DNA from: Bacteroides fragilis | Lineage (GTDB): Bacteria > Bacteroidota > Bacteroidia > Bacteroidales > DTGW01 | NCBI GenBank assembly: GCA_945889005.1 | Contig: CAMDBI010000018.1 | Span: 1-64,000, forward strand | Direction: 5' to 3' | DNA: 64,000 bases | Shown: piece by piece, positions 57,989-62,096 of the stretch | Numbering within the stretch: position 1 is the first letter of the stretch | Layout: each line of letters starts with the position of its first letter | Position numbers and translations under genes: made by a program | Notes under the pieces: model-generated | What the model was told of the DNA's origin: nothing | The model's database searches: none | Seen by the model: the letters and a program-made list of their open reading frames with translations, nothing else

Positions 57989-58043
57989 TCAATCCAAGAA
58001 AAATCCATTAGGTTTGCACTTCAAATTTAAAAAATTGACTAAA

Positions 58044-58736
58044 ATGAAGTTATTATATTCAGTTTTAATGCTCTGCGTGTTTGCCGCAGGTTCGATATTT
58101 GCAAAGCCGAAAGAAAAAAATACTGAAGTAATGACCGCTTTAGATTCACTTTCGTATTCAATGGGAGTACTTATAGGGCAAAGCATTAAAGGAGCCGGCG
58201 TTTCAGAAATTAATGCCAAAGAATTTTCGAAAGCGATGCTCGATGTTTTAAAAGGTAATACTCCGCTTATTTCGCTCGAAAATGCCAATAAATTTGTTGA
58301 GCAATTTTTGCAAAAAGCTGCAATGGCAAAGAAGTTAGAGGGTGCAAAAAAAGGAAAAGACTTTTTGGAAGAAAATAAAAAGAAACCAGGAGTAGTTGTA
58401 CTTCCTAGCGGTTTGCAATATAAAATATTAAAAGACACCGTAGGAGAAAAACCAAGCGAAAAAGACAAAGTTACTGTTCATTATCATGGAACATTGATTG
58501 ATGGCACTGTATTTGACAGTTCGGTTCAAAGAGGTGAGCCAATTCAATTTCCTGTAAATGGCGTAATAAAAGGTTGGGTTGAGGCACTTCAATTAATGTC
58601 GCCCGGCTCGAAATGGATTTTATATATTCCTTCGGAACTTGGTTATGGCGAACAAGACATGCAATCGATTCCGGCAAATAGTGTGCTTATTTTTGAAGTT
58701 GAGCTACTTTCTCTCGAAAAATCTATTAATCAGTAA
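58044..58736 (+). CDS. FKBP-type peptidyl-prolyl isomerase, exported (Mip-like)
   Basis: This 230-residue protein starts at ATG 58044, giving a signal peptide (MKLLYSVLMLCVFAAGSIFA). The helical N-terminal dimerisation domain (about 28-115) and a C-terminal FKBP domain follow, with VTVHYHGTLIDGTVFDSS, NGVIKGWVEALQLM and IPSELGYG. It catalyses proline isomerisation in the periplasm. It is the first of two tandem paralogues 19 bases apart. Confidence 0.94.
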   Translation: MKLLYSVLMLCVFAAGSIFAKPKEKNTEVMTALDSLSYSMGVLIGQSIKGAGVSEINAKEFSKAMLDVLKGNTPLISLENANKFVEQFLQKAAMAKKLEGAKKGKDFLEENKKKPGVVVLPSGLQYKILKDTVGEKPSEKDKVTVHYHGTLIDGTVFDSSVQRGEPIQFPVNGVIKGWVEALQLMSPGSKWILYIPSELGYGEQDMQSIPANSVLIFEVELLSLEKSINQ

Positions 58737-58755
58737 TTAATTAATATAAATAAAA

Positions 58756-59436
58756 ATGAAAATACAAAAGTTTATTTTTGCTGCGCTTGCAATCGGTGTA
58801 GCATTCTCGTCGTGCAAGACAAGCGGTAGCAAATCTCTTAAAACAGAAATAGATACTGTTAGTTATTATTTAGGAATAGCTATTGGCAAACAAATGCAGC
58901 CATCGGGTATTAGCGGAGTCAACTATGAACTTTTTGCTAAAGGTTTTGAAGAAGCCATTACTCAAAATAAAGACCTAAAACTTACCGACGAACAAGTAGG
59001 TATGTACCTTCAAACTTATTTTCAAGATCTTCAAATGAAAGAGTCTGAAAAAAATGCAGAAGAAGGCAAAAAATATATGGAAGAAAACAAAAAGAAGCCG
59101 GGAGTTCAAACAACTCCAAGTGGTTTGCAGTACGAAGTAATTAAACAAGGAACCGGAGCAAAACCAGTTGCCGAAAGTGAAGTTACTGTTCATTACACAG
59201 GAACAACAATCGATGGTAATATTTTCGATAGCTCTATCGAAAGAGGTCAGCCAGCAACTTTTAAGCTTAACGAGGTTATTCCCGGATGGACAGAAGGAAT
59301 TCAGTTGATGTCGGTTGGTTCTAAATTTAAGCTGTACATTCCATCGGAATTGGCTTATGGTGCTAATCCTCAAAGTCCTAAAATTAAACCCAATTCAGTT
59401 TTGATTTTTGATGTTGAATTACTTGAAGTAAAATAA
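58756..59436 (+). CDS. FKBP-type peptidyl-prolyl isomerase, lipoprotein
   Basis: This 226-residue paralogue of the preceding gene has a lipoprotein signal (FAALAIGVAFSSC) that anchors it to a membrane, the same dimerisation helices and a complete FKBP domain (VTVHYTGTTIDGNIFDSS, IPSELAYGANPQSPK). The two probably serve soluble and membrane-tethered folding. A strong terminator follows. Confidence 0.94.
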   Translation: MKIQKFIFAALAIGVAFSSCKTSGSKSLKTEIDTVSYYLGIAIGKQMQPSGISGVNYELFAKGFEEAITQNKDLKLTDEQVGMYLQTYFQDLQMKESEKNAEEGKKYMEENKKKPGVQTTPSGLQYEVIKQGTGAKPVAESEVTVHYTGTTIDGNIFDSSIERGQPATFKLNEVIPGWTEGIQLMSVGSKFKLYIPSELAYGANPQSPKIKPNSVLIFDVELLEVK

Positions 59437-59567: not shown

Positions 59568-60785
59568 ATGATGGACACAAATTTTATATCGATTGAAAAG
59601 TATATTGAAAATATACTGATGAATTGGGGGGTACATACTCAAATAGCATATTTGCTTAATATTGTAATTTTGCTTGGTATTATAGTTTTATTGGCAGTTA
59701 TTGCCAATTTTATTGTAAAGAAAATAATTGTTAAAATCATTAAACAATGGGTCGATAAGAGCGAAAACGATTGGGACGATATAATATATGAAAAAGGAGT
59801 GTTCAATAAGCTATCGCATCTCGCTCCGGCATTGGTTATTATGTATCTGTCGCCATTGGTTTTGCACGAATATGAAAGTTGGATAAAAGCTATTGAGAAA
59901 GCCTGTAGTATCTATATGATTATATCTATTCAAATGGTGTTAATCGCCTTTATTAATGCTTTGCACGAGATATTTCACAAATTGCCAATTTCTAAAGGAC
60001 GTTCGATAAAAGGCTATGTGCAAGTAGTAAAAATATTGGTGTATTTCATTTTCGCAATGCTTATTGTCTCGGCTCTTTTCAATACCAACCTTTCAAGTTT
60101 GTTTGCCGGATTGGGTGCCATGACTGCGGTTCTTTTATTTGTTTTCAAAGATGCAATTTTGGGACTTATTGCCGGTATACAAATTTCGGCAAACGATATT
60201 CTGAAAATTGGAGATTACATCGAGATGCCCTCCAAAGGTGCCGATGGCGTTGTTATCGACATTTCTTTAAACACAGTTAAAGTTTTGAATAGCAATAAAA
60301 CCATAACTCCTATACCTACCTATTCGTTTGTAAACGAATCGTTTCAGAACTGGCGTGGGCTTGAGCTTACAGATGGACGAAGAATAAAAAGGACTATAAA
60401 TATCGATATTCGTAGTATATGTTTTTGTCCCCAACCCATTATAGAAAAATGGTCAAAGCATTCATTAACTGAAACCTCGATAAACGAGCAAACAGACATT
60501 TCGACACTAACCAATATGCAACTTTTTAGAGTATATGCCGAAGCTTACCTTAAAAACCACAATGGAATACTGAAAAAAGAGGGCTATACTTTTTTAGTGC
60601 GTGAATTGCAGCCCGATGCCAATGGTTTGCCAATCGAAATATTTGTATATACAGTTGAAAAGGTTTTGGCAAGTCACGAGAAAATTCAAGCAGAGGTATT
60701 TGACCACCTATTTGCTGTTATTCCAGAGTTTGGATTGCGTATATTCCAGAACTATACTAATGATCAGTATGGTTGGAATAAATAA
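59568..60785 (+). CDS. Mechanosensitive ion channel, MscS family
   Basis: This 405-residue protein has about five transmembrane helices, more than the three of E. coli MscS, and resembles the YbdG/YnaI group. The pore-lining helix is LSSLFAGLGAMTAVLLFVFKDAILGLIAGIQI (key Gly/Ala face visible as GLGAMTAVLLF). The beta domain (GDYIEMPSKGADGVVIDISL) and cytoplasmic vestibule follow. It opens under membrane tension to release solutes. A TAAATTTG box at 59534-59541 may be its -7 element. Confidence 0.92.
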   Translation: MMDTNFISIEKYIENILMNWGVHTQIAYLLNIVILLGIIVLLAVIANFIVKKIIVKIIKQWVDKSENDWDDIIYEKGVFNKLSHLAPALVIMYLSPLVLHEYESWIKAIEKACSIYMIISIQMVLIAFINALHEIFHKLPISKGRSIKGYVQVVKILVYFIFAMLIVSALFNTNLSSLFAGLGAMTAVLLFVFKDAILGLIAGIQISANDILKIGDYIEMPSKGADGVVIDISLNTVKVLNSNKTITPIPTYSFVNESFQNWRGLELTDGRRIKRTINIDIRSICFCPQPIIEKWSKHSLTETSINEQTDISTLTNMQLFRVYAEAYLKNHNGILKKEGYTFLVRELQPDANGLPIEIFVYTVEKVLASHEKIQAEVFDHLFAVIPEFGLRIFQNYTNDQYGWNK

Positions 60786-60796
60786 GTTCTAAATAA

Positions 60797-60828
60797 TTTG
60801 CATATTTAAAAATAAAAAAATATATTTG
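60797..60828 (+). promoter_or_regulatory. Consensus Bacteroidota promoter upstream of the EamA leader
   Basis: TTTG at 60797-60800, a 20-base spacer and TATATTTG at 60821-60828 match the -33/-7 consensus perfectly. Transcription would begin near 60835, giving a leader of about 220 bases before the transporter ATG at 61058. Confidence 0.75.
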
Positions 60829-60834
60829 TTGTCT

Positions 60835-61022
60835 CATTGAATAAACTATGACTCATTGCACCATGCATATTTCAATTACAAGGTGGCTTTCTGCAACAAA
60901 GAAGACAAGCAGAGAGGCAAAGGGAATTGTATGCAGGTTGCTCATTATAAAGCAAATTTAAACAGCATTTGAATATTTAATATTCTCCCGAAGCCTCTCA
61001 GATACCCTGAGGGGCTTTTTTA
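60835..61022 (+). promoter_or_regulatory. Structured 5' leader with terminator/antiterminator (candidate riboswitch or attenuator)
   Basis: Four pairings can be drawn. A closing stem joins 60859-60869 (ACC, one bulged A, TGCATA) to 60930-60938 (TATGCAGGT). A hairpin joins CTTTCTGC (60887-60894) to GCAGAGAG (60909-60916). A terminator joins GCCTCTCAG (60993-61001) to CTGAGGGGC (61007-61015), followed by T residues. GAGAGGC at 60912-60918 is exactly complementary to GCCTCTC in the terminator, so the hairpin and the antiterminator exclude each other. That is the design of transcription attenuation. An odd-centred palindrome GAATATTtAATATTC (60971-60985) lies between. No known riboswitch class was recognised. 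Confidence 0.65.
60991..61022 (+). terminator. Intrinsic terminator inside the EamA leader
   Basis: A 9-bp stem (GCCTCTCAG / CTGAGGGGC, with one G-T pair) and a 5-base loop are followed by TTTTTTATTTT. It precedes the transporter start by 36 bases, so readthrough must be controlled for expression from the upstream promoter. Confidence 0.85.
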
Positions 61023-61057
61023 TTTTCACTTTTCTCAAACAATTAATTCATAGAGCC

Positions 61058-61981
61058 ATGAACAATCAACAAATCAAAACCAACATTCTTATTCCCGGAG
61101 CTATTGCTTTGGGAGGGGTCGTTTTGTTTTCGTCCAAATCGGTATTTGCCAAAATGGCTTATGCTTACAAAGCCGATCCACTTACAGTACTGTACTTTCG
61201 TATGTTATTTGCATTGCCCCTGGCTTTAATTATCGGTTATTACTTCGAAAAACGCAGAGAATGGCAGGGAATCAATACAAGGGATGTTGTTCTAACTGCA
61301 TTGATTAGTGTTTTGGGATATTATGTGTCGGCATTGTTCAATTTCTTTGGTCTTTTGTATGTCGAAGCAAGTATTGAACGGCTTATTTTATTTCTTTATC
61401 CAACAATGGTTATTGTGCTTTCGGCTGTATTTGCCAACAAGAAAATATCTTTTTACCAGGTATTGGCTATTAGCGTGTCGTATGCAGGTTTGTTTATTGC
61501 ATTTGCCGACAAGTTGATGATCGACAATAGTACCAAGTTTTGGTATGGTGCATTTCTAATACTAATGAGTTCTTTTACGTATGCTATATTTCTTACAATA
61601 GCCGATGGGCTTATTAGTCGTATGGGATCTGTGCGTTTTACAACCATAGCAATAGTATCGATGAGTGTATGTATTATTTTACATGTGATTATAGTAGGAA
61701 AAGCTCAGGTAAGTGGTTTTGATCAACACGTGTATTGGTATTGTCTAATAATGGGTGTTTTTTCGACTGTTATACCTGTGTATATGTTCAATGCAGCCAT
61801 CGAAAAATTGGGTTCTTCAAATATTGCAATTGTGAGTTGCTTAGGACCTATCTGTACACTTGCTTTCTCGGCTGCTTTGCTGAGCGAAAGTGTAAGTGTA
61901 TATCAGTTAATAGGCACTGTAGTGGTTATCGGTGGAATTCTAATTATTTATTTAAAAAAGAGAAATCATGCAAATACTTGA
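61058..61981 (+). CDS. EamA-family (DMT superfamily) transporter
   Basis: This 307-residue protein has ten transmembrane helices in two EamA repeats (about 12-145 and 160-302). These families export amino acids, nucleotides or other metabolites, or import sugars; the substrate cannot be read here. The upstream leader suggests that its expression responds to a small molecule or to translation of a leader. A small frame overlaps its last 14 bases. Confidence 0.9.
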   Translation: MNNQQIKTNILIPGAIALGGVVLFSSKSVFAKMAYAYKADPLTVLYFRMLFALPLALIIGYYFEKRREWQGINTRDVVLTALISVLGYYVSALFNFFGLLYVEASIERLILFLYPTMVIVLSAVFANKKISFYQVLAISVSYAGLFIAFADKLMIDNSTKFWYGAFLILMSSFTYAIFLTIADGLISRMGSVRFTTIAIVSMSVCIILHVIIVGKAQVSGFDQHVYWYCLIMGVFSTVIPVYMFNAAIEKLGSSNIAIVSCLGPICTLAFSAALLSESVSVYQLIGTVVVIGGILIIYLKKRNHANT

Positions 61982-62096
61982 AATAAAAGTCGATCCTGAT
62001 GAATGGTGGGCTGTTTTCAAAAAGATTTTTTGGTCTGAAGAATTGTGCCATAATGATACTAACGAAGGTACAGACAAGGAAACAGACATCGGATAG
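61968..62096 (+). CDS. Small hypothetical protein overlapping the transporter gene
   Basis: A 42-codon frame starts at ATG 61968 inside the 3' end of the EamA gene and ends at TAG 62096. The product is acidic, with MQILEIKVDPDEWWAVFKK and a Thr/Asp/Glu-rich tail. The overlap of 14 bases would allow translational coupling. The amphipathic opening looks protein-like, but no homology is recognised. Confidence 0.4.
   Translation: MQILEIKVDPDEWWAVFKKIFWSEELCHNDTNEGTDKETDIG

Follow-up and report, generated by a model that had tools for sequence, protein, structure and literature searches.

A probable trp-type leader-peptide attenuator upstream of an EamA-family transporter gene in Bacteroidota

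The window (the whole stretch of DNA analyzed here, 64,000 nucleotides) encodes an EamA-family (DMT) transporter of 307 aa at 61058-61981, and the leader that precedes this gene raises the question of whether its transcription is conditional and, if so, on what signal. All window features given below are on the forward strand. An earlier note read the leader as a consensus promoter, a multi-stem fold and an intrinsic terminator, with a two-state architecture typical of riboswitches or attenuators and the transporter's substrate as a possible ligand. The promoter (60797-60828) is borne out and is of the Bacteroidota type, with a −33 TTTG (60797-60800), a 20 nt spacer and a −7 TATATTTG (60821-60828). 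The consensus of sigma-ABfr, the primary sigma factor of Bacteroidota, is TAnnTTTG with a −33 TTTG (PMC7366714), and the window promoter fits it more closely than the sigma-70 consensus. Judged from the position of these boxes, the transcript would start at about 60833-60836. The terminator (60990-61021) is also where it was claimed to be and consists of a 12-pair stem (60990-61018, −18.9 kcal/mol) followed by a U run.

What the earlier note had missed is a leader-peptide ORF of 37 codons (60848-60961), uninterrupted from ATG to TAA and translating as MTHCTMHISITRWLSATKKTSREAKGIVCRLLIIKQI. Both strands of the leader hairpin, including the GAGAGGC at 60912-60918, lie within this ORF, which makes a ribosome-mediated attenuator likelier than a riboswitch. 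The sole Trp codon of the ORF, codon 13 (60884-60886), is the putative control codon, given the recurrence of Trp among the 19 leaders described below. It is the first codon of segment 1 (60884-60894), which pairs with 60909-60919, so that the control codon is held in the 5′ strand of the protector stem (1:2, −13.3 kcal/mol). Segment 2 (GCAGAGAGGC plus GGGA, 60909-60925) can partner either segment 1 or segment 3. Segment 3 (60986-60999) comprises TCCC (60986-60989) and the GCCTCTC at 60993-60999, and serves as both the antiterminator partner and the 5′ arm of the terminator (3:4). The order of these pieces is that of a trp-type attenuator. A run of adjacent control codons is usual in such attenuators, though not universal; the window leader has a single Trp codon.

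The folding calculations support the two states. The leader folds at −56.9 kcal/mol, against −46.6 kcal/mol for shuffled sequences (z −2.4; 2/200 shuffles equal or better), in agreement with the multi-stem fold proposed earlier. The complement of the terminator arm exceeds chance, with a duplex of −21.4 kcal/mol where shuffles average −10.9 (p = 0.002), and the 2:3 pairing is longer than first described, as GGGA (60922-60925) and TCCC (60986-60989) add to the stem. In the partition function of the unmasked, complete leader, P(1:2) is 0.86 and P(3:4) is 1.0, which is the off state. When the RNA is masked to 60900, to mimic a ribosome whose A site holds Trp13, and segment 4 is absent, P(2:3) is 1.0. 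When a ribosome further along covers segment 2, the terminator forms (P = 1.0). Antiterminator and terminator are thus mutually exclusive in the window leader, and the claim that GAGAGGC pairs either in the leader hairpin or with the terminator arm is upheld. The equilibrium fold of 60834-61002 carries a caveat: 2:3 also prevails before segment 4 is made in the absence of a ribosome (0.99). The off state therefore needs either timing or ribosome coverage, as it does in other attenuators.

These elements suggest the following mechanism. The leader would be transcribed and the short ORF, presumably a translated one, would be read at once. With charged tRNA-Trp plentiful, the ribosome would clear Trp13 and segment 2 would be covered or would return to segment 1; with segment 2 unavailable, the 3:4 terminator would form and no transporter would be made. 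With Trp-tRNA scarce, and tRNA-Trp uncharged, the ribosome would stall once Trp13 enters the A site, thereby masking segment 1. A ribosome covers about 12 nt downstream (PMC4833913, where the figure is given for a stop codon), and one stalled at Trp13 would leave GAGAGGC, 28 nt downstream, free. Segment 2 could then join segment 3 before segment 4 emerges, giving antitermination and read-through into the EamA gene. We regard it as very likely that the leader is a leader-peptide attenuator, a reading whose computed support lies in its elements, the exclusive pairing, the recurrence with co-varying pairing at orthologous genes, and the enrichment and placement of Trp. That it is a trp-type ribosome-mediated transcription attenuator, with Trp shortage switching the transporter on, is probable. 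The signal would then probably be the charging of tRNA-Trp, in place of the transporter substrate as ligand.

Might the leader instead be a metabolite-binding riboswitch, with the ORF incidental? Its multi-stem fold, better than that of shuffles, and its terminator and anti-terminator would suit one, yet a riboswitch leaves the open frame, the Trp codon and the fixed spacing from stop codon to terminator unexplained. An Rfam scan, proposed earlier as a check, matched no family in the window. At loose thresholds there were sub-threshold matches only, most of them over the terminator (the best was trpB, RF04312, at 23.7 bits vs. 59), and the T-box model had no match in the leader even up to E = 5. 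No conserved unpaired, aptamer-like core is present among the 19 leaders, which instead conserve the hallmarks of a translated ORF. We therefore find no support for a riboswitch with a ligand, and consider it very improbable. A comparable case is the Corynebacterium ilvB-II leader, which was initially a riboswitch candidate and proved to be a uORF attenuator (PMC10272879, PMC11109978); it differs from the EamA leader in its branched-chain codons, its biosynthetic operon and its host phylum, Actinobacteria.

Related leaders had to be located via their genes, as the leader sequences are too diverged. A DNA search with the whole leader against its own genome and 60 relatives returned short chance matches only, and querying 198 genomes with the leader peptide at the protein level gave no convincing relative. 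Among approximately 393 genomes from the order, five proved to have a close orthologue of the transporter (E below 1e−30), in each case directly preceded by an ORF and a terminator. A single-protein scan of genome contigs with the transporter gave no relative; a profile scan of GTDB genomes, with an alignment as query, gave 80 homologues, and 69 of the 194 genomes searched in the Arcicella order contained matches. Homologous leaders, whose absence would have counted against the earlier reading, are thus present upstream of EamA orthologues across Bacteroidota. Curated by eye, the set comprises 19 leaders of shared plan: the window, L096, L039, L040, L097, L110 (Carboxylicivirga), L140 (Marinilabiliaceae), L144, L166 (Flectobacillus), L167 (Pseudarcicella), L125 (Arcicella), L213, L216, L221, L266, L267, L273, L106, and L157. 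Terminators before EamA genes in Aquimarina, Arcicella (L131, L146, L150) and Bernardetiaceae were judged to be the ends of preceding genes and were not counted.

The plan is an ORF of 17-37 codons, with in-frame start and stop, followed by an intrinsic terminator whose 5′ arm is complementary to an upstream segment; the sequences themselves differ. The distance from ORF stop to terminator is 20-35 nt (28.0 ± 3.9 nt, 19 leaders). The peptides have little sequence in common except among close relatives (xxxWQLILxxxGRxLY in L213 and L221, WQLWL in L110 and L140, TLWLNSFLL in L144 and L166), and the conserved features are the start, the Trp codon, and the stop at a fixed distance from the terminator. 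Many copies have the leader ATG only 2-8 nt past the TAnnTTTG box (e.g., L110:2340-2455), and the transcript from which their peptide would be translated may be almost leaderless. The L039 leader lacks a visible promoter of its own, and its ORF starts 4 bases past the stop codon of the upstream gene. The leader is restricted to 19 of the roughly 136 distinct EamA homologues. On a FastTree tree of the 136 proteins its carriers cluster (7 changes vs. 18 in shuffles), with 14/19 in one half of the tree. This pattern would suit either an old origin with losses or several gains.

The leaders align too poorly for a covariance model, so co-variation was assessed by swapping pairing partners. Segment 3 varies among leaders (CCTCTC, CCTTCC, CCTCCC, CCCGCC, CTTTCTC, etc.) and segment 2 changes with it. 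Own pairs sum to −269 kcal/mol, compared with −220 ± 12 kcal/mol for swapped segments 3, and 5/200,000 permutations were equal or better. Against shuffled leaders, the combined p for pairing is about 1e−12 (17 leaders). The exception is L039, which has no convincing segment 2 (duplex −5.9, p = 0.96). The two-state attenuator of the earlier note is supported by these compensating changes between leader segment and terminator arm in homologous leaders. They also bear on the idea that no regulation exists here, i.e., that the structure is the strong terminator of the upstream gene joined by a chance ORF. That gene, which encodes a mechanosensitive channel, is on the same strand and ends at 60785, and orthologues outside the leader-bearing groups have no leader, both of which would fit. 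Nevertheless, a consensus promoter separates the channel gene from the leader, leaders of this plan with co-varying pairing stand behind different upstream genes, and the plan is not seen at other terminators in the loci. An unregulated terminator is extremely improbable.

Which amino acid would the attenuator sense? Trp codons occur in 17/19 leaders, where 7.5 are expected from dinucleotide shuffles that stay open (p = 4e−6), and in 13 of the 15 non-redundant leaders (p = 8e−5). After correction for 20 tests, Trp is the only amino acid still enriched. An automated selection blind to Trp gave 11/13 leaders with Trp, duplicates, upstream-gene tails and one wrong-strand locus having been removed from this set by eye. 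The codon is also fixed in place. Among the 17 Trp-bearing leaders, 13 have Trp at codon 12-13 (in L144 and L267 only via a chosen internal ATG or GTG start), and in 15 the Trp codon is 18-28 nt from segment 2. As a negative control, we took 145 other terminators from the same loci; five have an ORF and pairing and none of these has Trp in that geometry, which is found in 15/18 EamA leaders (Fisher p = 0.002). Most leaders, the window included, have one Trp codon, while L110, L140 and L273 have two or three that are not adjacent. L040 places its Trp codon nearer to segment 2 than the other leaders do, 9 nt upstream of the CGGGAGG core, and part of the segment would be masked by a ribosome stalled there. 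L106 and L157 are related leaders with the usual ORF-terminator spacing, weaker pairing and no Trp codon (MKNRSRYSQPCSLQISMMSGLEEA and MKKRSHIDILKSLHYKTESGVVE); a change of signal may have taken place in their branch.

On this evidence Trp is likely to be the signal. A leader-peptide attenuator could also respond to another amino acid (Cys or Arg) or to a general slowing of ribosomes, e.g., by an antibiotic. Trp codons are mostly single and two leaders lack them. Five order-level leaders have Cys near the end of the peptide, yet Cys is unenriched over all leaders, and Cys sensing, an idea prompted by the initial five leaders, was abandoned when the set grew. Arg comes next after Trp (18/19, p = 0.003 uncorrected, not significant once corrected), but its codons sit where the purine-rich segment 2 forces AGG or AGA. 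Trp alone survives correction, at a fixed place and in a geometry common to the trpE leaders described below. A signal other than Trp is accordingly rather unlikely.

The position of Trp brings to mind TnaC, a peptide of 24 codons with Trp at codon 12. An arrest peptide of this kind, in which free Trp and a nascent peptide with Trp12 stall the ribosome near the stop codon, would explain why most leaders have Trp at codon 12-13, and three leaders (L213, L216, L221) have both 24 codons and Trp12. However, the distance from Trp to stop ranges from 6 to 24 codons across leaders, which implies no fixed position in the exit tunnel, and a stall at the stop would mask segment 2 in many leaders, leading to termination and not induction. 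Escherichia coli TnaC resembles the EamA leader peptides in its shortness and its Trp12; its Trp-to-stop spacing is fixed and it is Rho-dependent, whereas the EamA leaders have variable spacing and an intrinsic terminator. TnaC-type fixed arrest was rejected on the spacing, and we consider a TnaC-like mechanism highly unlikely.

Leaders of trpE provided a positive control for trp-type attenuation in the same genomes. Leaders with 2-4 Trp codons precede trpE in 12/12 Bacteroidota genomes checked, including that of the window, where the leader (L182:731-791, G000:C28) encodes MITINKIWWWQLFLMNPWG with a WWW run; the other loci are L180, L181, L183, L185-L189, L192, L194, and L196. In the six measured, the main Trp codons are 18-33 nt from segment 2 and the terminator begins 24-43 nt past the stop. 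With Trp runs in such a geometry, these genomes probably employ ribosome-stalling trp-type attenuation. The EamA leader resembles these trpL-type leaders in its short ORF with Trp, its alternative 1:2, 2:3 and 3:4 stems, and its layout. It differs in usually having one Trp codon and no run, in controlling a transporter and not biosynthesis, and, in the window copy, in having segment 2 well within the ORF. As a second Trp leader, of weaker codon content, beside that of the trp operon, it would allow one and several control codons to be compared in one cell. The trpE Trp-run leaders of Bacteroidota are themselves a family that merits its own model.

In the literature searched, this leader is undescribed and no study is dedicated to Trp attenuators in Bacteroidota. 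Leader peptides have been reported at amino-acid biosynthesis operons of Flavobacterium (PMC9723704) and leader sORFs in Bacteroides (PMC7366714); such leaders are noted in Bacteroidota but little studied in that literature. What could have been taken for an orphan riboswitch becomes a testable prediction, namely that shortage of Trp-tRNA controls an uncharacterized EamA transporter in many Bacteroidota.

The leader is also a regulatory clue to substrate in a transporter family that is hard to annotate. Membership of the EamA family is clear (PF00892, E = 1e−34, 120.1 bits vs. a Pfam gathering threshold of 28.2). The NCBIfam models 2A78 (under cut-off) and YddG (NF050091, 29.4 bits of 300; PRK11689, 35.2 of 194) were not reached, and a PDB profile search with the transporter gave no match. 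From the proposed regulation by the leader and a weak likeness to YddG, our guess at a substrate would be an aromatic compound, whether Trp or another, or else a precursor. EamA proteins are usually labeled exporters, and an exporter turned on during Trp shortage is not intuitive. Contrary to that label, the protein could conceivably be an uptake or precursor-recovery permease induced by Trp shortage, a doubtful proposal that we offer tentatively; if true, the leader would mark a Trp-salvage transporter across Bacteroidota governed by a single Trp codon. Bacillus subtilis YcbK, which we take to be an EamA-family protein, is encoded in one operon with the T-box-controlled anti-TRAP gene. It is described as "a putative efflux protein" and is repressed by Trp-bound TRAP (PMC3971595, PMC13170310). 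In rtpA-ycbK, a precedent for the control proposed here, a transporter-like gene is tied to Trp supply (PMC3971595, PMC11255114, PMC13170310); the means there are a T-box for tRNA-Trp and TRAP with no leader peptide, unlike the EamA leader.

Two other features of the window were noted. A small Trp-rich ORF (61968-62096, MQILEIKVDPDEWWAVFKKIFWSEELCHNDTNEGTDKETDIG) overlaps the EamA gene by 14 nt at that gene's 3′ end; it has no Pfam match and no relative among 60 genomes of the order. At 58014-59436, two adjacent genes encode similar proteins of 240 and 226 aa which, from a by-eye reading of their translations, look like FKBP-type peptidyl-prolyl isomerases.
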